Source: a virus. From it: 25,986 nucleotides of DNA. This document shows positions 1,132 through 22,773 of this stretch, one piece after another. A program made the position numbers and the translations under genes. The stretch lies in IMG/VR virus record IMGVR_UViG_3300009428_000062, positions 1-25,986 of that record. One strand, written 5' to 3'. Within the stretch, counting starts at the first letter, position 1, and the number at the start of each line of letters is the position of its first letter. The notes below the pieces were generated by a model. It worked only from the letters and a program-made list of their open reading frames with translations, was not told where the DNA came from and did not search any database.

Positions 1132-1560
1132 ATGGACCCTATTAGCATAGCCTTATTATCATTTACTGCCCTCAAAAAGGGTATTGCTTTAGGCAAAGAC
1201 CTTTCAGCTATGGGCAAAGACCTCAACAAGGTTTTTGATTTCATTGATGGAACAAAGGAAGCCCAGAAGTCTGGTAATAAAAATGACCCACTCTCCGATT
1301 ACATTGCCTATGAGAAGGCACTGGACATGGAGAAGCAACTAGAGCAGGTCATATGGGAAACCAGAGGGTCAAAGGGTGTAGCTACATTTAAACGCATGAG
1401 AGCACAAGCCACAGAGCGAGACATACAATCTAAGTATGCATCTGTAAAAAGACGTAACAAGATAATGAATGGACTGTCTATAGCATTTGGTTTAGTAGTA
1501 TTTGCAGGTGGCATAGTGGGCATGGTATTCTTAGCTAAGTATCTACAAGAAATACAATGA
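1132..1560 (+). CDS. Hypothetical protein with one C-terminal membrane segment (142 aa)
   Basis: The start ATG has an AAGGA ribosome-binding site six to seven bases upstream. The first 110 residues are soluble, helical and charged. Residues about 112-136 form one strongly hydrophobic segment with glycines, flanked on the inside by the basic stretch KRRNK, so the bulk of the protein is predicted to stay in the cytoplasm with a C-terminal anchor. The gene overlaps the next one (77 aa, also one membrane segment) by four bases (ATGA). Position between tail genes and internal virion genes, plus the paired membrane proteins, makes a lysis role (holin or spanin-like partner) possible, but there is no recognised family motif and a structural role is equally open. 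Confidence 0.75.
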   Translation: MDPISIALLSFTALKKGIALGKDLSAMGKDLNKVFDFIDGTKEAQKSGNKNDPLSDYIAYEKALDMEKQLEQVIWETRGSKGVATFKRMRAQATERDIQSKYASVKRRNKIMNGLSIAFGLVVFAGGIVGMVFLAKYLQEIQ

Positions 1561-1790
1561 TGGAAATAACACCGTGGATACTATGGAACGTAATATTAAG
1601 TTTAGTTATAGCACCTGTAGTATGGGTCTTTAGGGGAATTATCGTGGAAATGAAACGCATAGACATACTACTGAATAGAACTAGGGAAGACTACGCTACT
1701 CGTACAGAGATGAGAGATGACATGAAGGTTGTCGTTGATGCACTGCACAGAGTAGAAGATAAATTAGATAGAGTATTGAGCAAGGATTAA
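1557..1790 (+). CDS. Small membrane protein, holin candidate (77 aa)
   Basis: Residues about 7-30 are a single hydrophobic segment beginning with Trp and Pro residues. The remaining 45 residues are highly charged and read as an amphipathic helix or coiled coil (for example a V-x-x-L-H-R-V-x-x-K-L-x-R-V-L heptad-like run near the end). This N-terminal-anchor plus coiled-coil design is common among small phage proteins annotated as holins or holin-like, but no diagnostic motif is present. The start overlaps the upstream stop as ATGATG, so translation is probably coupled to the 142-aa membrane protein; the second Met is an equally good start. The call is an inference from topology and position only. 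Confidence 0.7.
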   Translation: MMEITPWILWNVILSLVIAPVVWVFRGIIVEMKRIDILLNRTREDYATRTEMRDDMKVVVDALHRVEDKLDRVLSKD

Positions 1791-1795
1791 AATAG

Positions 1796-4078
1796 ATGGC
1801 AACAGCAGAACAAATACAGAAAGCTAGAATGATGCAAAGCACACCTTCTGTAACTCAAAGAACTAAGTTTAGAAAGTTTAAAGGCTTTAACCCTAAACAA
1901 CGAGCTATGGTTCTTGAAGCTGCAGGGCAATTAGATGATGGCAGTTCTAATGCAGCAACTGTACTAGCTGAAGCTACTCAAAGTGCTACAAATCAAATAA
2001 ATAAAATGTATAATGGTGGAATGATACATGCTGCAGAAGGTAAACTAGTTAAAGGAGCAGGAGATAAACATTGGCAAATAGAGTCTACTGACCCTGCTAC
2101 AGGTGATGTAATACTAATTGATACAGGTAGAAAAAGTGAAGGAGATGCAGCTAAAGCTCTAGGTGCGTATGAAGCTGTTACATCTAGTGAAGCTACTGCT
2201 ACAGGAGAGTTAGTCAGAGAAAATGGTCAATGGTCTGTAGAGATGCAAAATGCAGATGGAACAAAATCTAATGTTCCAACAGGTAAAACTAATAAAAATT
2301 TAGCTACAGGTTTAGCTAATCAATTTGTACAAGACCCTCAAGGTGGCGGTGATGACGAAGAGGGAGACCCTGTAGTAGAAGAAGAAGCTCCTATTAATGC
2401 TTTAGATTATACACAAGATATTTTAACTGGAGAGCAAGGGTTAAATCCAAATGCTAAAGCCGTAGCTACAAATATAACAGATGCCCAAGTAGCAGCAGGT
2501 AATATAGACTCCTCTGTAGGCAGTGTAGACATAAATACAACACCTACTGTAACCGCAGCACAAGCTCCTACAACTACAGCAGCGACTCCTACAGGAAAAG
2601 ACGCTGTACAAATAACAGACCCTGTATTAACTCAAGACGCTATAGATGCTGCAGCACAAGTAGATGCAACTAAAGGCATAGTTAGTGCAGAAGCTCAAGT
2701 AAATGCTGAAACTATGGATGCATCAGATTTAGCTGCTTTAGATTTAGAAGCAGCACAGATAGCAGACGAAGATGTAACAAAAGTAGAAGGTGCTCCTGTA
2801 CGAGAAGAAGTAGAAGGAGAGATGATTAGCAAGTACGATGCAGATGCATCTACTGCAGCAAAGTTTGCTGAAGAAGTACAAGCAGCCCAAGGAACAGTAG
2901 GAGTATTATCTACAGTTAGAGGTCAATTAGCTGAGATACAGAGGGAATTTGATAACGGTGAAATACCTATGTGGGCTGCAGGTCCATATAGACAAACTCA
3001 ACAAGCGTTAGCAGCTAGAGGTATATCTGGCTCTAGTATGGCAGGTCAAGCTTTAATTCAGTCTTTAATGGAAGCTTCAGTGCCTATAGCTACAATAGAT
3101 GCTAAAACTTATGCTGACATGGATATGCAAAACTTGTCTAATAGACAAGCTAGAAACATGTTAGCTGCAGAGCAAAGAGCTATATTTATCGGTCAAGAGT
3201 TTGACCAAGCATTTAAAATGAGAGTAATAAATGCAGGTAAAGTAGAAGATAGAGCAAATATGAACTTTACTGCTCAACAACAAATAGCTCTTGAAAATGC
3301 TAGAATAGCTGCTACAGTAGATTTAGCTAATTTAAATAATAGACAAGCTAAGATTATGGCAGACGCAGCAGCTATGACTCAAATAGATATGATTAATCTT
3401 AATAATAGACAGCAAGCTGCAGTAGCTAATGCTCAAGCTTTTTTACAGATGGATTTAACTAATGTAGCTTTTGACCAACAGGCAGCTATGTTTGAAGCTC
3501 AATCTAGAGTTCAAGCTTTGTTTACAGATGCAGCAGCAGAGAATGCAGCTAAAAATATAAATGCTCAAAGCTCTAATGATATGAATAAATTTTTTGAATC
3601 TTTAATTAACAACACAGATATACAAAATGCTGCATCTGTTAATGGCATGAATCAATTTAATACTAATGCTGTAAACTCTATAGCTGAATTTAATTCACAA
3701 ATGATAAATCAAAGAGAGCTATGGAATGCAGAAAACGCTAGGGTAATAGCTGAATCTAATGCTAACTGGCGAAGGGCTGTAACAACTACAAATAATGCTA
3801 CGGAAAACGCAATAAATCAAATAAATGCTCAAAATGAATTTGGATTACAAACACAAGCCTATGCTAATACGTGGCAACGAGATAGAGACATTATGAATAT
3901 GACATTTCAAACTCAAATGACTATAGAACAACAAGCACATGAAATTGTAGTAGCTAAAATGGGGCAAGCAGCAGCGGAGTCAGAAGCAGGTGGTATATTA
4001 GTAGGTGCTGTAATTAATGGTATATTTGAGAATTATTCAAGTATATTTGGTGGAGCAGTAAAAGCAGTGACAGCATAA
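1796..4078 (+). CDS. Large internal virion / structural protein with Asn-Arg-Gln repeats (760 aa)
   Basis: The start has AAGGA eight bases upstream, and the stop overlaps the next start by one base (TAATG). Residues 1-180 are mixed and include a small beta-like region. Residues 180-345 are very acidic and Ala/Thr-rich and likely disordered. Residues 375-435 contain a conserved-looking segment (GEIPMWAAGPYRQ, then RGISGSSMA, then VPIATIDAKT) that I have seen in marine phage virion proteins. Residues 440-720 are an Ala/Asn/Gln-rich helical region with repeated LNNRQ motifs. The last 35 residues contain a hydrophobic Gly-rich segment. No enzymatic motif is seen. Size, composition and position at the head of the ejection-protein cluster suggest an internal core or tail-tube-associated protein, comparable in place to T7 gp14/gp15, but I see no homology to those. 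Confidence 0.7.
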   Translation: MATAEQIQKARMMQSTPSVTQRTKFRKFKGFNPKQRAMVLEAAGQLDDGSSNAATVLAEATQSATNQINKMYNGGMIHAAEGKLVKGAGDKHWQIESTDPATGDVILIDTGRKSEGDAAKALGAYEAVTSSEATATGELVRENGQWSVEMQNADGTKSNVPTGKTNKNLATGLANQFVQDPQGGGDDEEGDPVVEEEAPINALDYTQDILTGEQGLNPNAKAVATNITDAQVAAGNIDSSVGSVDINTTPTVTAAQAPTTTAATPTGKDAVQITDPVLTQDAIDAAAQVDATKGIVSAEAQVNAETMDASDLAALDLEAAQIADEDVTKVEGAPVREEVEGEMISKYDADASTAAKFAEEVQAAQGTVGVLSTVRGQLAEIQREFDNGEIPMWAAGPYRQTQQALAARGISGSSMAGQALIQSLMEASVPIATIDAKTYADMDMQNLSNRQARNMLAAEQRAIFIGQEFDQAFKMRVINAGKVEDRANMNFTAQQQIALENARIAATVDLANLNNRQAKIMADAAAMTQIDMINLNNRQQAAVANAQAFLQMDLTNVAFDQQAAMFEAQSRVQALFTDAAAENAAKNINAQSSNDMNKFFESLINNTDIQNAASVNGMNQFNTNAVNSIAEFNSQMINQRELWNAENARVIAESNANWRRAVTTTNNATENAINQINAQNEFGLQTQAYANTWQRDRDIMNMTFQTQMTIEQQAHEIVVAKMGQAAAESEAGGILVGAVINGIFENYSSIFGGAVKAVTA
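3131..3412 (+). repeat. LNNRQ-type protein repeats inside the 760-aa virion protein
   Basis: Three copies of an N-L-(S/N)-N-R-Q motif occur at residues 446-451, 512-517 and 534-539, each preceded by a hydrophobic/Asp-Met or Asp-Leu step and followed by an Ala-rich helix. The last two copies are 22 residues apart; the first is 66 residues upstream, which equals three times 22. The surrounding residues 440-580 continue the same Ala/Asn/Gln-rich heptad-like texture without a perfect motif. This looks like an irregular helical repeat, possibly a coiled-coil rod. The DNA copies are diverged, so it is a protein-level repeat rather than a recent duplication. Confidence 0.5.
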
Positions 4079-16169: not shown

Positions 16170-17093
16170 TTATACTCCTTCTAGTTCATCTGTATCTATG
16201 AATTGGTCTATCAAACCTTTATCATCATCGGACATTTTATCCTTTGAGTTGGTGTGGTGCGTGTCAGACACCCAAGTATTAAATGCAGCAATCCAATCCA
16301 GAAAGTTTTGTAAGGTTACTTGGTCATCGACTGTTATATCAATAGACTTGCTATCTAATTTAGCAGTAATGACAAAGTATGTGCCACCCGATATCTTATC
16401 TTTTTCTTCAGTAGAGAAGTCAATAAGATGTTGGATAGGTAAGTGTTGCATAGATGCGAGTTTGTTAAAAGGCTCACCCATATTTTTAAAGGATACCTTA
16501 CTATCTGTCTCAAATAAAACAGGCATCTCAAAATCATCTACTGGAGAACCTATAGCATCCGTAGCATCTTTAACTACTGCAATACCGAAGATATGTCTCT
16601 GTCGTTTAATTTGAGAGTATATAGCTTTAGTTTTTTCAGGTAGAGAACTATAGTCCTGTATGTAACCTGCTGTTTTACCACAGTTAAATCCACCTGATGT
16701 ATCCATCAAGTCATTGTTTAAGCTATCGGACAGTACAGTTTTTATATACTCTCCTCTTTTGCCTGTATCCGCAGACTTCTTAGGGTCAAAGGATTGAAAC
16801 CTTTGGTAAGACTGTCGTTGCATAAAAGGTCTAAGAGAAAGAGTAGGCATGTATATCTCTTCGCCATCCGTCTTGCGAATAACTAAAGAACCCGCAGGAA
16901 CAACTTCCATTTTTACTTTCTTACCATTTACATCCTGTGTACCCATGATAGCTTCTCGTAATACTTTAACTCTAGCTAATTGAGAAGTCTTCTTATCCGT
17001 TCCAGAGTTAGTAGGTGCAGTCGCAACTCCCATAACTTTAGCCATGTCTGCAAAGTTTATAGAGCCGTTAGATGTTATTAATTCATTACTCAT
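16170..17093 (-). CDS. Probable ssDNA-binding protein, gp2.5-like in position (307 aa)
   Basis: The ATG at 17093 follows the polymerase stop by two bases and has AGGA about nine bases upstream, inside the end of the polymerase gene; a frame-extending ATG at 17120 is less likely. The middle of the protein has alternating beta strands and many Ser/Thr/Lys/aromatic residues (LRPFMQRQSYQRFQSFDP; a lone Cys in GGFNCGKTAGYIQDY). The last 20 residues are very acidic (SDDDKGLIDQFIDTDELEGV), as in SSB and T7 gp2.5, where the tail recruits polymerase and primase-helicase. Its position between polymerase and exonuclease matches a replication accessory. No sequence family was firmly recognised, so the call rests on tail, composition and context. 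Confidence 0.6.
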   Translation of the reverse strand: MSNELITSNGSINFADMAKVMGVATAPTNSGTDKKTSQLARVKVLREAIMGTQDVNGKKVKMEVVPAGSLVIRKTDGEEIYMPTLSLRPFMQRQSYQRFQSFDPKKSADTGKRGEYIKTVLSDSLNNDLMDTSGGFNCGKTAGYIQDYSSLPEKTKAIYSQIKRQRHIFGIAVVKDATDAIGSPVDDFEMPVLFETDSKVSFKNMGEPFNKLASMQHLPIQHLIDFSTEEKDKISGGTYFVITAKLDSKSIDITVDDQVTLQNFLDWIAAFNTWVSDTHHTNSKDKMSDDDKGLIDQFIDTDELEGV

Positions 17094-17095
17094 AT

Positions 17096-19141
17096 TTATA
17101 CGTCCTTTGTTTCTAGCCAATTTGGTCCTATCTTGGCTTCTAATAATAATGGTACGTTGAAGTCTACCCCATAGTACTCGTTAATTAGGTCGTGCAGATT
17201 TTCATTCAAAGTATTTACTGCTGCTATCACCTGTTGCTCTTCATTAGGGTGGACATCTACCACAATCGAATCATGTACCGTGTTTACCAGACAACTATAG
17301 TTGTTGTCAAGAAGTTTTTCAAACTCTAGTAAAACTATTGGAACAATGTCTCCTGTTGCAAATCCTTGCACAGGATAATTTTTTATCATAGTGAAGTTAG
17401 TTACGCTTCCATTGGCTCTCCTTTTCATATTTTCAAATTCATATTGTCTTCCAGAAGGTGTCTGTATTCTGCCTGTATTAATAGCTTCAGTAGCTAATCG
17501 ACTATGCCATTTACCTATGCCACTATACTTAGTTGTGAACTGTTTGTAGTAAGAAGCTTCAGCAGGTGTTCTACCATAACCACTAGCTCCGTACAAAGGA
17601 GCAAATGTATGAGCCTTAGCTTCTTGTCTAGACGTAGGTTGCCCTGCATCTGAGATAACCTTAGCAGTGTAAGCGTGGACATCAAAGCCTGTAGACACTT
17701 CCTTCATAGCTACTTCGTCTTGACCTAAGAATGCAGCGACTCTAAATTCTAACTGAGCAAAGTCAGCTTCCATTATTTGACCGCCTTCCCATCTGGATAC
17801 AAATACTTTCTTTACAGGAAACGTACCGCCTCTAGGCATGTTCTGCATGTTAGGATTACGTCCACTGAATCTACCTGTAGATGTAATGTGCTGAGTCAAT
17901 CCTACGTGCAAGAAGTTATCCTCTTTGGTAAATATATCTATAGATTTAATATACGTATTAAGATAAGTTTCAAGTGCTGAAAGTCTTCTCAAGTTCTTTA
18001 AAAAGTCTCGTTGCATAGTCAAGCCTTTACCGTTAGCTAATGTTTCTAGTTTTTCTATGTTTCCTTTTGATGTTGAGAATCCACCTGCGGATACCCAATT
18101 CTTGCTAGGTGCGGTAAAGCGTAAACCTGCCACACGATTAGTATCAACAAGATAATAGCCAGTTGCATCGCAAGACTTGCACTTCGTAGGCTTTTTAAAT
18201 AGTGAGCCGTCCTTCCTTCTTTTGTGAACATATTTATTTCCTTTACATTCATCACACATGTAAGCTTTAGTCTTGTACATAATCTGCATATTAACATCAA
18301 CAGACTTTTTAAACTCTGCGTCTGTAGAAGTATGCTCAAACAACTCTTCGCCCCATATATGTTTGTCTATTACCTTTCTACTAAATATAAGTTGAGATAC
18401 TTGCTCTGGTGAATTAAGATTGATAGGTGTGTCACCCATGAGTTCTTTAGTTGTTTTCTCTAAAGAATTTAGTATATCATTCCTTTCTTTTTCAAACTCA
18501 TCTCTTACTTCGTATAAGGTTTCTCGATTTACTTTCAAACCATTCATATACATTTTAGTTAAGGCTCTGCATACTTCGTTTGTAATCTTGAGTACATTAC
18601 ACAGTGAATGATTCTCTTGGTCTTTGTATCGTTTATCTAAAGCTAAGAACAGTGCTCTAGTTACAAATATATCCGCATCTAAGTACTCACTTAGTTCTGC
18701 ATGAGGTATATCTTTTGTGTTGTATCCTTTCTTGAAATACTCTTTAAGAGTGTCTTGTTTCTTGTATGGTAGCTTATACCTTTCAGCACAAGCCTCTAAA
18801 GACAAAGGTTTCTTAATTCCTCTGCATAGTATATACTCAGATAACATTGTATCATATATGTCACCATCGTATTTAAAACCACAAGACCATAGCCATTGCA
18901 AATCATGTTGAGCATTGTGCATAATAAGTAATGTAGTCTTATCTAATGTCTCCTGCAAACTATGAGGTAAGTCAGGAGTAGCTGTATCGGAGTGGTCGTA
19001 TGTATATATAGTCGGGTGCTCATCACTGTCAACATCAGCTAGACCAACCATAGTTAAAGAGTTCTGTGGTTCAAAAGGGTCTAAGTGTAACTTGCCCCCT
19101 CTTGTTGTTGTAGTATTTTCTACGTCTAAAGCTAATCTCAT
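17096..19141 (-). CDS. Family A DNA polymerase with internal DnaJ-like zinc finger (681 aa)
   Basis: Replicative polymerase with proofreading. The 3'-5' exonuclease domain has D6/E8 (ALDVEN), HNAQHD (Asp80) and YLDADIF (Asp157). Residues 241-252 carry the thumb motif N-L-N-S-P-E-Q-V-S-Q-L-I. Four cysteines follow at 296/299 (CDECKGNKY) and 321/324 (CKSCDATGYY), spaced as CxxCxGx...CxxCxxTGY like the DnaJ central zinc domain, and inserted before the STSKGNIEKL helix. The polymerase motifs are complete: A (Asp460 in DFAQLEFR), B (Arg505, Lys509, Phe513, Tyr517) and C (His623-Asp624). Phe513 aligns with E. coli Pol I Phe762. This polymerase-plus-DnaJ-finger layout is the feature I associate with HMO-2011. 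The start has AGAGG about ten bases upstream, 21 bases after the helicase stop. Confidence 0.96.
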   Translation of the reverse strand: MRLALDVENTTTTRGGKLHLDPFEPQNSLTMVGLADVDSDEHPTIYTYDHSDTATPDLPHSLQETLDKTTLLIMHNAQHDLQWLWSCGFKYDGDIYDTMLSEYILCRGIKKPLSLEACAERYKLPYKKQDTLKEYFKKGYNTKDIPHAELSEYLDADIFVTRALFLALDKRYKDQENHSLCNVLKITNEVCRALTKMYMNGLKVNRETLYEVRDEFEKERNDILNSLEKTTKELMGDTPINLNSPEQVSQLIFSRKVIDKHIWGEELFEHTSTDAEFKKSVDVNMQIMYKTKAYMCDECKGNKYVHKRRKDGSLFKKPTKCKSCDATGYYLVDTNRVAGLRFTAPSKNWVSAGGFSTSKGNIEKLETLANGKGLTMQRDFLKNLRRLSALETYLNTYIKSIDIFTKEDNFLHVGLTQHITSTGRFSGRNPNMQNMPRGGTFPVKKVFVSRWEGGQIMEADFAQLEFRVAAFLGQDEVAMKEVSTGFDVHAYTAKVISDAGQPTSRQEAKAHTFAPLYGASGYGRTPAEASYYKQFTTKYSGIGKWHSRLATEAINTGRIQTPSGRQYEFENMKRRANGSVTNFTMIKNYPVQGFATGDIVPIVLLEFEKLLDNNYSCLVNTVHDSIVVDVHPNEEQQVIAAVNTLNENLHDLINEYYGVDFNVPLLLEAKIGPNWLETKDV

Positions 19142-19162: not shown

Positions 19163-20389
19163 TTATGCAGTGTATCTAGATATAGCACCGTCTAATACTA
19201 CATTCATACTACCATGCCAACCGCCTGTCAACTTATTTTTAGCTATAACTAAATATCGTACAGGGCTATCCTCTTCTTGTCCTTCTACAGGAGCGTTCTT
19301 ACCGATAAGAATCATAAGGTCAGCTTCCGCTGCTTTACCTGTTTTAGAACCTTCAAGCATAGATTGATTCAAGCTCTGAGCTTTACCTTCCGCTTCAGCA
19401 GATAGTTGACTCATCCAGAAGATAGCACAGTTGTGTTGTTTCGCTATGTTTCTAGCGTAGATAGCTGCATCTTTCAAGTATACGTCAGACTTGTCTCCTG
19501 TACGAGCAGCAAACTTGTCACCCATATCCATGACCACAACATCAGGACTGTAAGTCTTTACCACCTGTTCAACCCAAGCTAAGTCTTTGCCAGTACAATC
19601 TTTGATATGTAAGTTGCCACGAATCTTTTCATATAGCATACCTGCTTTGGCAGGATTATTCTTTACATCCATCAAAGACATTCCTGTAGCTGCACTGAGA
19701 TACCTAGCTCCAACTCTGTGATATGCTTCCTCGTTGAGAAGCACTAAACACTTAGCTCCTTGATGAGCAAAACCTTCTGGACCTGCAATCAAACTAGCGT
19801 GAAAGCTAGTCTTACCTGTATTAGGTCTAGCTCCTACTATAACTAAGTGACCGCCATTGATACCTTCAATACGTCCAGACAATGTAGGAATGTTGAACTT
19901 CCATTGAGCTTCCAAGTCATTGAGTTGCAATAGTGTATCTACAGAGATGTCTTCCCAATTAACTTTCATGTTCGGTAAGAAGTCATCGTTGTAAGACTCA
20001 ATCATTCTACGCAATGGCTCTAATGAGTTAGCTTCACCATTGACGTAATCAAATCCGATGTTCGCTATGTCCTCACCTATGCTTTGTCTGAATAAACTAG
20101 ATAGTACATCTTGAGCTATCTCTTTCGTCATAGGTTGTTCTTTCTGTAGCTGATAGAACAGGTTCTTATACATCTGCTTGTTGGCAGTTGTAATGGTCGT
20201 GTTGTTCGTCAAGAAGATAGCTTCTAGTTCTTCAGGTGTAAGAGTACGCTCATACTTATCCATAGCGTAATCTATAGTTTGTTTAAGCTTCCGTACATCC
20301 TTAGAGAATAGTTTGTCAGGACAGCGACTGCCTTTGTGGTCTTCGTAAAAGTCTCTGTCCATCAAAGACCGTAATAGTGATAGTTCCAT
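19163..20389 (-). CDS. Replicative DNA helicase, DnaB/T7 gp4 helicase-domain type (408 aa)
   Basis: RecA-fold hexameric helicase: Walker A GARPNTGKTS (residues 186-195), a LLNEE stretch after it, Walker B VVVMD (Asp288) and the SQLS motif (Gln328) typical of motif H3. Near the end are SKTGKAAEADLMI and IAKNKLTG with the Lys/Arg-finger region. The N-terminal 150 residues are helical and lack a primase zinc finger or Toprim, so primase function is in the separate gene at 21964-22773. The ATG at 20389, just after the ThyX stop, is preferred over the overlapping ATG at 20401 because GAAGGA abuts the latter directly. It should unwind the fork ahead of the family A polymerase. Confidence 0.92.
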   Translation of the reverse strand: MELSLLRSLMDRDFYEDHKGSRCPDKLFSKDVRKLKQTIDYAMDKYERTLTPEELEAIFLTNNTTITTANKQMYKNLFYQLQKEQPMTKEIAQDVLSSLFRQSIGEDIANIGFDYVNGEANSLEPLRRMIESYNDDFLPNMKVNWEDISVDTLLQLNDLEAQWKFNIPTLSGRIEGINGGHLVIVGARPNTGKTSFHASLIAGPEGFAHQGAKCLVLLNEEAYHRVGARYLSAATGMSLMDVKNNPAKAGMLYEKIRGNLHIKDCTGKDLAWVEQVVKTYSPDVVVMDMGDKFAARTGDKSDVYLKDAAIYARNIAKQHNCAIFWMSQLSAEAEGKAQSLNQSMLEGSKTGKAAEADLMILIGKNAPVEGQEEDSPVRYLVIAKNKLTGGWHGSMNVVLDGAISRYTA

Positions 20390-20390
20390 A

Positions 20391-21053
20391 TTATTTATCA
20401 TCCTTCATTAAATATTTCCAAGATACAGGAAACAATCGTTCCATCTCATCATTTACTTGGTCAGCAACCATTTTAGTTTCTACTTGTGCATCACCTGCAC
20501 ATCTTAGTCTGCACATGTCAGCAAATGCATCAAGGCTACCTGACCAAAACCATTCAGTCAAGTGGCTAATAGGCAACACCATACGAGCTTGCTCTTCACA
20601 TATACCTAGTTCTAATAGCTTACTGTACGATGCCATAGCTTCTGCTATTACTGCATTGTGATGAAAAGAAGCCAAGCTTTGAGTAGCTTCATCTTGAATT
20701 ACATCACCACTACCTTGCTTCTTGTCCTTAGTTTGTGAACGCCAGATAGCGGTATCAGGGTCATCCATACTAGGTCTATACCAATTAGGTCTGGTGTCTA
20801 CGTAGCGTCTACTGATTTCATTCCATCGTAAAAACTTGTGCTTCACTAATTGTCTAGCTACAAAGATTGGAGCTTGAACTTTGAATGAAGCAAAGCAATG
20901 ACCGAAAGGTGACATATGTTTATGCTTCGCTAGATACGCAATGAGTTTTGCATCTGCATCTATAAATGTTTTCTTATTTACATTAAAACTAACTCTAGCT
21001 GCATTGACTACAGTTAAGTCATTACCCATGTAATTTATTAGTTGTACTTTCAT
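20391..21053 (-). CDS. thyX: Flavin-dependent thymidylate synthase ThyX (220 aa)
   Basis: It makes dTMP from dUMP with methylenetetrahydrofolate, FAD and NADPH. The ThyX signature is present as K71-H72-K73-x7-S81-x-R83 in VKHKFLRWNEISRRYVD, so the usual RHR triad reads KHK while the downstream Ser and Arg are kept. HMSPFGHCFASFKV upstream and FLP/LP-type ending helices (ARMVLPISHLTEWFWSGSL) fit the family, as does the length of about 220. The start overlaps the upstream stop as ATGA. It works with NrdJ to supply thymidine for an AT-rich genome. Confidence 0.94.
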   Translation of the reverse strand: MKVQLINYMGNDLTVVNAARVSFNVNKKTFIDADAKLIAYLAKHKHMSPFGHCFASFKVQAPIFVARQLVKHKFLRWNEISRRYVDTRPNWYRPSMDDPDTAIWRSQTKDKKQGSGDVIQDEATQSLASFHHNAVIAEAMASYSKLLELGICEEQARMVLPISHLTEWFWSGSLDAFADMCRLRCAGDAQVETKMVADQVNDEMERLFPVSWKYLMKDDK

Positions 21054-21955
21054 ACGTGTGTTTCCTTATTTTCTAAATGCCTTATTTTGTTTTTGTAATA
21101 TTCTTGCATATCTTCATCGGGTTTTTCTTCAGTATACTTATTTAACTGAGATAAAAAGTATTCTTTTTTTTCTTCATCCCATTGTTTTTGTTTTTCTAAA
21201 TACTCTTTGTTATATTTATTAAAAAATCTTTCCGTAAAATCTTTTATTCCTTTGCTGTTGTAGTGCATATCCATGCTTTTACTTTTAGGAGACCACTTAC
21301 CTGTAGTCCAATAGTAGGTATAACATTTTCCAACTTCGTTTATTAAGTTAAACATAGTTGCACCTTCTTTGTATTCATGTTCGATACTATTTTCATTTAA
21401 AAAATCTATTACAAACTCCAGAGTTTCATTCGTATCTCTTCTAAATATATTTTCTCCTTTGCTGTTTTTTCTTACAAAAATCCACTCACTTTTACTTTTT
21501 GTTTTATCTATTTTAGTTTCTTCTAATATTCTTTTATTGATTCTTTCCTTCCAACTTTTTTGTTTAGGAGATAGCTTTCTTTTATTTTTTGTTTGCAATA
21601 AAAAAGAATAATCATGCTCGTATAAATAACCTAACTCATTTGCGTATTCTATTAGGTCTTTGTTAGGGTTAGCGTCTATTTTCTTAGCTATTCGTTTTAA
21701 ACCCTCAAAAATATTACCTGTATCTATATCCATAAATTTATTTACGCAGACATTACCTACATAGGTTTCATTACTGTTTAATGTATTCTTTATGTAACAT
21801 AGTTCTTTTATAGGATGATTGCATGGGCATCTATTCCAATCGTCATCTACTTCTACTCTTGATAGTTTCCATTCTAGTTTTGCTTTATTAAAATCATTAG
21901 ACTCAGATAAAGGCAAAATATGTTTCTTTAATGTTTCAATATTATGATGTTCCAT
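21050..21955 (-). CDS. Unrecognised Cys-knuckle, Lys/Asn-rich protein between primase and ThyX (301 aa)
   Basis: The start has AGAGGAAAAC before the ATG. Residues 43-74 hold Cys43-x-Cys45-x-His47, Cys53 and Cys70 in a pattern C-x-C-x-H-P-I...C-x-I-x-N...V-G-N-x-C...F. I have seen this pattern in scattered phage and large-virus proteins of unknown role; it looks like a small zinc-binding module. The middle is very Lys/Glu/Asn-rich, with a LSPKQKSWKERI helix. Residues about 200-255 have an aromatic stretch (CYTYYWTTGKWSP, then HYNSKGIKDFTERFF), and the end is a charged coiled coil. Base composition is visibly more AT-rich, with longer T/A runs, than the replication genes on both sides, which suggests a later insertion. 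DNA binding is plausible but unproven. Confidence 0.75.
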   Translation of the reverse strand: MEHHNIETLKKHILPLSESNDFNKAKLEWKLSRVEVDDDWNRCPCNHPIKELCYIKNTLNSNETYVGNVCVNKFMDIDTGNIFEGLKRIAKKIDANPNKDLIEYANELGYLYEHDYSFLLQTKNKRKLSPKQKSWKERINKRILEETKIDKTKSKSEWIFVRKNSKGENIFRRDTNETLEFVIDFLNENSIEHEYKEGATMFNLINEVGKCYTYYWTTGKWSPKSKSMDMHYNSKGIKDFTERFFNKYNKEYLEKQKQWDEEKKEYFLSQLNKYTEEKPDEDMQEYYKNKIRHLENKETHV

Positions 21956-21963
21956 GTTTTCCT

Positions 21964-22773
21964 CTATACAGATGTTATTCTATTCATATTAATTAAACCA
22001 TCTAGACGTTTCAAGTCTACATAGTTTTTGTATTTAATGTCATCCTGCAAAGACATAGCGTGAACTATAGACTGAGTAGCTCGTAGTTCTTTAGTCAATG
22101 ACAATGTTTTGTTTTTAGCATCAGGGTCAAGAGCTACAATAACTTTGTGGTACTTACATAACTCTTGTCGGCTTTTACTAGATAAGGATGTGCCTAGCAA
22201 CGCAAAGCCAGTAGCATCCATGTTCTCAGAGATAGCAATTGCACTGATGACATCTTCTACGACTACAGCACAGTATGTATTGTCTGTCTTAGATGATAGG
22301 AAGAAGTCTGCCTTACCACTGTAGCGTAGCCACTTAGGTTGCTTGCCAGTTAGGGAACGCCCAACAGCATCTAATACCATACCGTTACGACTACGGATAG
22401 GGAATACGGCTCGTTCATCTTTTACATCGTAAAGTAAATACGTATCCTGTAGATTCCATTTGTCTATAAACTTATGCATAAACTTGTTATCTATATCGTG
22501 AGATACATATTCAGGGAATACAAACTTCTGTGGCTCTTGCGTAGATACAGCAAGGTTATTCTTTTTATTTAATATAGTAGCTATATCTTCCTTAGAATAA
22601 CCAGAACGTACTGCACCCTTTGTACCACAACCTAGTTTGTAACAGTTAAATATAGTAGACCCATCCATCTTAATAGCTGTAAAAGTTTTCTTACCTCTAC
22701 AGGAAGGACAATCAATGCGTACACTTTCTGCTTCATTTAATGCTAAGTCATCTATAAATTGTTTAATATTCAT
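21964..22773 (-). CDS. DNA primase with zinc finger and Toprim domain (269 aa)
   Basis: The zinc-binding domain is at the N-terminus: Cys22-x2-Cys25 and Cys44-x4-Cys49. A Toprim domain follows with VVVEDVISAIA (Glu173) and VIVALDPDAKN (Asp216, Asp218). This corresponds to the primase half of T7 gp4, making RNA primers for lagging-strand synthesis; here it is a stand-alone gene, with the helicase encoded two genes further on. After Asp218 only about 50 residues remain, and no helicase motifs. The start is the first ATG after the 108-bp intergenic region, with only a weak GGAA upstream. It is the first gene of the replication run if a promoter lies in that region. Confidence 0.9.
   Translation of the reverse strand: MNIKQFIDDLALNEAESVRIDCPSCRGKKTFTAIKMDGSTIFNCYKLGCGTKGAVRSGYSKEDIATILNKKNNLAVSTQEPQKFVFPEYVSHDIDNKFMHKFIDKWNLQDTYLLYDVKDERAVFPIRSRNGMVLDAVGRSLTGKQPKWLRYSGKADFFLSSKTDNTYCAVVVEDVISAIAISENMDATGFALLGTSLSSKSRQELCKYHKVIVALDPDAKNKTLSLTKELRATQSIVHAMSLQDDIKYKNYVDLKRLDGLINMNRITSV

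Follow-up and report, generated by a model that had tools for sequence, protein, structure and literature searches.

Two unnamed protein families fused in one protein, encoded between primase and ThyX of an HMO-2011-type marine phage: a possible accessory factor of phage DNA replication

The stretch of DNA considered here (the window, a viral record 25,986 bases long) carries, between its primase and ThyX genes, a gene for a protein of 301 aa that resembles no named family, and the question arises as to what this protein is and what its place among replication genes says about its role. The first-pass annotation had called a gene at this position; it is indeed present on the minus strand, beginning 8 nt behind the primase ORF and overlapping the start of the ThyX gene with its last 4 nt (Table 1). 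Because the DnaB helicase of the window is 60-67% identical to those of HMO-2011 and five CRP phages, and its PolA ORF (17096-19141), read from the translation, contains two CxxCxG-like repeats that form a DnaJ-like insert, the window is, by its sequence, that of an HMO-2011-type marine phage; PMC9038755 describes the DNA polymerase of phages of this type as containing a partial DnaJ domain in its centre. In the slot behind the polymerase (16170-17120), where an ssDNA-binding protein might be expected, the window encodes a 316-aa product without a PHROG match, and HMO-2011-type isolates have a similar-sized unnamed gene at the same place.

Table 1. Coordinates in the window of the 301-aa gene, its parts and its neighbours
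Feature	Coordinates	Strand	Evidence
Two-domain protein gene, 301 aa	21050..21955	-	ORF; dN/dS 0.098 against L001, 245 codons
ThyX, next downstream	20391..21053	-	Pfam Thy1 1.1e-40; 4-nt overlap with the 301-aa gene
Primase, next upstream	21964..22773	-	phrog_47 DNA primase 1.6e-19
DnaB-type helicase	19163..20401	-	phrog_19 7.1e-46; 60-67% identity to HMO-2011-type isolates
Four-Cys module, residues 1-148	21512..21955	-	Leave-out profile E 1.8e-52 (2-148); confident AlphaFold2 to about residue 140
Codons C43-C70 with conserved C43, C45, C53, C70	21746..21829	-	Cys conservation; metal binding inferred
TGKW domain, residues 153-251	21203..21499	-	Leave-out profile E 3.5e-29; AlphaFold2 residues 150-262
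Signature YYWTTGKW, residues 214-221	21293..21316	-	Invariant Y, G and W columns in alignment
C-terminal charged helix, residues 252-301	21053..21202	-	Predicted helix 235-277 and 281-300

Searches with the whole protein returned little. In Pfam the only matches were to DUF7660, at E 0.011 along the charged helix, and to MAS20; PHROGs and NCBIfam gave no match, and the best E against PDB sequences was 0.37, with 0.56 and 0.35 in profile searches. Four Curtobacterium records recovered by tblastn from INPHARED (E 4-6 only) were set aside, and a CliffHanger protein match was discarded since the TGKW motif is absent from it. No nuclease family (homing, HNH or GIY-YIG) was matched by the whole protein or its pieces, nor was any enzyme or DNA-modifying enzyme family matched by the 301-aa protein, so that the earlier suggestion of a DNA-modifying accessory found no support in the family searches. 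That the protein adds up to no nameable family was a sound judgement as regards curated collections, neither half having a Pfam or NCBIfam family or a convincing PHROG, and is explained by two unnamed families joined in one protein. When IMG/VR was scanned with all 301 residues, two near-copies (L001 and L002) came up, together with four proteins of 180-183 aa that resemble residues 9-145 only. The first searches with the C-terminal half gave near-copies only; 49 stretches fitted a DNA pattern written for YYxTTGKW, and 46 ORFs have the motif in frame (a count that takes in some long proteins unrelated to the family, as well as L128, which duplicates contig L002). A profile scan of IMG/VR confirmed 184 TGKW loci, the best 80 of which were kept. 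Profiles built without the window (and, for the TGKW domain, also without L001) recover the two parts of the window protein at the E-values in Table 1, and none of 1000 shuffles reached E<=10. The module match is full length and includes all four cysteines (CxC..C..GNxC), and the TGKW match includes the signature. These comparisons show that the 301-aa protein joins two families, each of which is also found by itself, with borders at residues 2-148 and 153-251 rather than at the segments 35-80 and 195-260 outlined at first. Among the loci compared (for TGKW, the best 80 of 184), both parts share one ORF only in the window and L001; L007 is the window itself, and L002 and L008 end at a contig edge inside the C-terminal half. 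Neither family was found described in the open-licence literature searched, which included PMC11092137, PMC9038755, PMC10904395 and PMC13373217; this does not show that the families are unpublished.

The gene is real and under purifying selection, with a dN/dS of 0.10 between the window and contig L001, the gene order of which is the same. Synonymous differences between the two amount to 5 at approx. 52 sites over residues 57-148 and 25 at approx. 51 sites over residues 149-251 (Fisher p 1e-5), and because they are far fewer in the former segment, recombination between the module half and the TGKW half is suggested, the two having perhaps had different recent histories. Insertion as a cassette with direct repeats was considered and rejected: repeats flanking the gene are short and imperfect in the window, as in L100, with none of note, and are absent at L083 and L092.

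The N-terminal module is best characterized by its cysteines. In the C-x-C-x-H...C...C pattern first noted here, the cysteines proved to be the conserved part, with C43, C45, C53 and C70 present in 44/44, 44/44, 42/44 and 44/45 of those distinct relatives in which the respective position is covered, but the histidine (H47) is retained in 26 of 44 only; besides the cysteines, S17, E28, W29, N57 and G67 are strictly conserved. Judging from the conserved cysteines, the module probably binds zinc or another metal. Profile scans extend the family to phages, chromosomes and plasmids, although it is sparse in bacterial genomes (3 of 398 and 2 of 296, where one positive in each count is a seed genome that was already known to carry it). 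The 44 distinct flanked loci comprise 28 from IMG/VR, 10 on chromosomes and 6 on plasmids. In 12 of the 28 virus loci the module lies near a primase, helicase, polymerase, ribonucleotide reductase (RNR) or ThyX gene, nine by BLAST against replication-cluster homologues and three by Pfam (L037, L059 and L060, where a helicase or D5-type primase-helicase adjoins it); the same screen found no replication gene near the module in the other 16 virus loci or in any of the 16 plasmid and chromosomal loci. The replication-cluster settings comprise several unrelated arrangements, such as integrase-module-primase/helicase-polymerase (L026), primase/helicase-module-nuclease-polymerase (L010) and RNR-module-ThyX (L005 and L006), and RNR adjoins the module in L003, L004 and L039. 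In L010 (4860-5468), the module is preceded by an N-terminal Cys ribbon that by eye is very like that of the neighbouring primase-helicase. Single relatives show further peculiarities: in L014 (4641-5489) the module stands behind what by eye is a DnaJ-like Cys-rich N-terminal segment; in L015 (1521-6416) it lies, again by eye, between an ATPase and S8-like peptidase pair and a SEFIR/TIR-type-looking gene; and in a Providencia plasmid (L021, 5986-6894) its last helical segment is seemingly repeated within a 302-aa relative, the neighbours of which include umuD, umuC and the gene for pol III theta.

The TGKW domain has a more uniform setting. The TGKW...KGI.DF segment reported earlier is present in the window protein, and a tandem double domain occurs in 23 of 70 distinct TGKW ORFs (the profile loci behind this and the context counts below being the best 80 of 184 from IMG/VR). 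Of the 55 distinct loci whose flanks are long enough, one of them being L002, the sister of the window, 53 have a replication-cluster homologue no more than 2.5 kb away; within the same distance there is a polymerase in 46, a primase-helicase in 36 and a Cas4-like exonuclease in 33 of the 55. It should be noted that these context counts, like those for the module, omit loci with short flanks and entries with identical C-termini; as the ORFs were called mechanically and BLAST was run against a reference set of small size, the counts are lower bounds. With the window, L001 and L002 left out, the nearest upstream gene on the same strand is the polymerase in 36 of 52 non-edge loci, the remainder of the 55 comprising 13 other genes, 3 contig edges, 2 DnaB genes and 1 integrase. 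An overlap of exactly 14 nt with the polymerase is found for 29 of the 36 polymerase-preceded genes (by a mechanical start rule), which suggests that translation of the TGKW gene is coupled to that of the polymerase. The window gene departs from this majority arrangement in lying between primase and ThyX instead of behind the polymerase. L196, with the same integrase-primase-helicase-polymerase order, has a separate TGKW gene between helicase and polymerase and an additional 198-aa gene behind the primase, and in L085 and L118 the TGKW gene directly precedes the integrase. The end of the TGKW protein of L100 (3083-3670) nearly copies the C-terminal tail of the upstream polymerase (1321-3096); both end in NWSETH followed by the stop codon, and each of the two tails contains the start of the gene that comes next. 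The domain was found in 0 of 299 bacterial genomes, a search that had no positive control and shows little. Three TGKW representatives and the window's own half had no convincing relative among 50,697 phage records, so a frequent part of replication clusters, standing behind the polymerase in many uncultured marine phages, may have gone unnoticed.

Structure prediction and fold search, proposed at first as a check, met with divided success, in that confident models were obtained for both halves but no PDB match at E<=0.001. In the AlphaFold2 model of the whole protein (22 sequences), the module is confident, with ten-residue means of 79-96 to residue 140, and the C-terminal half is poor; residues 150-262 modelled with 43 TGKW sequences reached a mean pLDDT of 87.3 and a pTM of 0.75, with two strands, a helix, four strands and a long helix in that order. 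Residues 235-300 are predicted to be helical, in keeping with the coiled-coil end described earlier. In the whole-protein model, C43 and C45 fall just past strand 29-42, C53 within strand 48-57 and C70 in helix 68-75, a placement that would fit what we take to be a treble-clef-like metal site. A resemblance to GRF-type zinc fingers is conceivable. Both the whole-protein and the 150-262 models were used as fold-search queries, and their best VIA-align Z scores (6.0 and 5.3, respectively) lie in the range that the VIA notes call uninformative, with unrelated rows for the better TGKW model. No DNA-binding family was matched by fold or sequence in searches with the whole protein and the TGKW domain, and no OB fold is named among the Foldseek and VIA rows listed for the two models. 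A KA1-like fold for the C-terminal half, at Z 6.0 on the first, low-confidence model, fell to Z 3.0 on the better one and is regarded as noise, as are the frataxin (CyaY) rows in both VIA searches; the C-terminal domain of T4 MotA (Z 3.1) is too weak a match. The best matches of the whole model in the viral structure library BFVD include uncharacterised iridovirus, pithovirus and entomopoxvirus proteins.

Base composition was the feature by which the gene had first stood out from its neighbours, and it is indeed extreme. With 27.6% GC (ThyX 38.2%, primase 36.7%) it is the lowest of the 30 ORFs, its 16.6 A/T runs of five or more per kb are the densest (mean 4.2), and Lys, Asn and Glu make up 35.5% of the protein, the highest share among the 18 ORFs of at least 150 aa and the second highest when all 30 are ranked. 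Most of the low GC of the window gene lies at codon positions 1 and 2 (lowest of 30); its GC3 ranks 7th lowest of 18, which is unremarkable, and its choice among synonymous codons is not unusual. A purely amino-acid-driven explanation drawn from these values was nevertheless dropped, since GC3 of module genes is lower across relatives too (median -0.079). Of 41 relatives, 38 have a module gene that is poorer in GC than the remainder of the locus, the surroundings ranging between 28% and 70% GC. The mean difference is -0.080 compared with +0.004 for 228 control ORFs (mechanical ORFs of 110-400 aa; Mann-Whitney p 1e-14), and at 23 of the 37 loci that offer three or more controls the module gene has a lower GC than all of them. 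Being AT-richer than the surrounding DNA is thus a habit of the module family at nearly all loci, and the low GC here does not point to a recent arrival.

The genomic context of both halves supports the view, already voiced in the first-pass annotation, that the protein is a replication accessory. Specifically, we suggest, with belief and doubt about evenly balanced, that its two domains together make up an accessory factor for the replication of phage DNA, which binds nucleic acid at the fork. The N-terminal half would be a four-cysteine, probably zinc-binding, metal-stabilised unit, and the C-terminal half a polymerase-linked unit that other marine phages encode on its own, as a small protein directly behind the polymerase. 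Each part would have an affinity for nucleic acid, probably DNA in single-stranded or forked form, and the bound protein would keep the primase, helicase or polymerase of the phage in place at the fork or regulate it. It must be kept in mind that gene neighbourhood is not function, which limits this reading. What began as one orphan gene has led to two recurrent, recognisable and unnamed families, the fusion of which suggests that they work together.

A different role may be hinted at by the plasmid relatives of the module. All of the top five plasmid matches (H47-H51) have a pair of genes for an HTH protein and an HExxH peptidase within 4 kb, and the only one of the five peptidases scanned, that of L019, matches PADLOC capP at 9.3e-59. 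Other neighbours, by annotation, are CBASS-like or ubiquitin-like: nucleotidyltransferase, HNH endonuclease and SIR2 in L018 and L019, nucleotidyltransferase and HNH endonuclease in L224, multiubiquitin, ThiF and DUF6527 in L225, and ThiF in L226. On the Croceicoccus plasmid of L225 (4063-6459), the module is the fourth gene of the multiubiquitin-ThiF-DUF6527 operon, beside an HTH-ImmA/IrrE pair. According to PMC10904395 and PMC13373217, CapH and CapP control operons such as CBASS and Bub, and CapP is activated by ssDNA. The module might therefore be kin to a partner of DNA-damage-inducible immune operons, and a phage copy tethered by the TGKW domain would hide ssDNA or block its sensing, a counter-defence role, rival or complementary to one in replication, with which the variable presence of the gene in the phage group would also agree. 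However, the pair occurs at only 6 of 49 distinct module loci (L081 among them being approximately the same element as L019), with a seventh (L049) showing a weak peptidase match; it is absent from the four other plasmid regions (L020-L023) and from the window, where the neighbours are primase and ThyX. Moreover, the module itself has no match in PADLOC, no defence link was seen for the TGKW half, and many phage relatives lack a fused partner. We thus consider counter-defence unlikely, although worth keeping in view. A combination of the two ideas, in which the phage fused a CapH-CapP-type operon partner to a polymerase-associated domain so that the module on fork DNA would shield ssDNA from host sensing, is a long shot; if true, it would make the module and the TGKW domain two new ssDNA-handling domains.

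Comparison with related phages, the synteny check proposed early on, bears on whether the gene is neutral or mobile cargo, i.e., an accessory gene at an exchange hot spot kept for reasons other than replication. Twelve records of marine helicase relatives were available (H94-H105, HMO-2011 being counted twice), six of which were examined. In CRP-603 and CRP-207 the primase directly adjoins ThyX with nothing between them, in CRP-2 a 56-aa ORF separates the two, and in CRP-345, CRP-1 and HMO-2011 the helicase comes after the primase. Neither the module nor the TGKW profile has a match in any of the six isolate regions (17-19 kb of approx. 54 kb each). The gene is variably present in the phage group, being absent from the six isolates in the regions examined, and because related isolates replicate without it, it is not essential to an HMO-2011-type phage. 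The integrase-primase-ThyX-helicase stretch does carry differing extra genes in CRP-603, CRP-2, CRP-345 and L196, including an HNH gene (CRP-603 and CRP-2) and one for endonuclease VII (CRP-345). The idea of later-acquired cargo is thus right about variable presence but gains nothing from composition, and the lack of a nuclease match, the low dN/dS, the lack of notable direct repeats and the recurrence of the TGKW half at one place behind the polymerase in many contigs all speak against it, which makes cargo a distinctly improbable explanation. An enzyme that modifies nucleotides or DNA in concert with ThyX and RNR, with the four cysteines as a catalytic or structural metal site, would suit the RNR and ThyX neighbours of the module and its strictly conserved non-Cys residues, but there is no enzyme family match, no catalytic pattern was recognised and standalone plasmid copies are not beside nucleotide genes, so that this reading is very unlikely.

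Returning to the proposed replication accessory, its two halves can be set beside a few known proteins. Among small phage proteins of unknown function, phrog_27571 is matched at 3.3e-11 by L104, a short TGKW-motif protein, and phrog_27453 at 0.03-0.09 by the window C-terminal half, L084, L092 and L118, all four aligning over the same positions; for the main TGKW group these matches are weak, and both families lack the four-Cys module. A divergent module relative (L037) matches the Cys region of phrog_2319, a 399-position family of unknown function, at 1.1e-4, whereas the window protein itself does not match it. In the structure search, the whole model matches, though with low TM-scores, two viral proteins of uncharacterised function, W8W1U3 of invertebrate iridescent virus 30 (Foldseek E 1.9e-4, prob 1.00; TM 0.22 on the query; 20% identity), the only match in the viral structure library at E<=0.001, and S5MST5 of Bacillus phage JL (E 4.3e-3, prob 0.97; TM 0.20 on the query; 19% identity), and according to the models the module may also be present in DNA viruses of eukaryotes. 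A further counterpart is found beside the CapH-CapP-like pairs of alphaproteobacterial plasmids, where the "hypothetical protein" encoded by the third gene is a full-length module relative with 57-60% identity to the L009 query; it differs from the phage protein in lacking the TGKW domain and in belonging to an immune operon instead of a replication cluster. The module thereby links phage replication clusters with plasmid immune-type operons under DNA-damage-type regulators.
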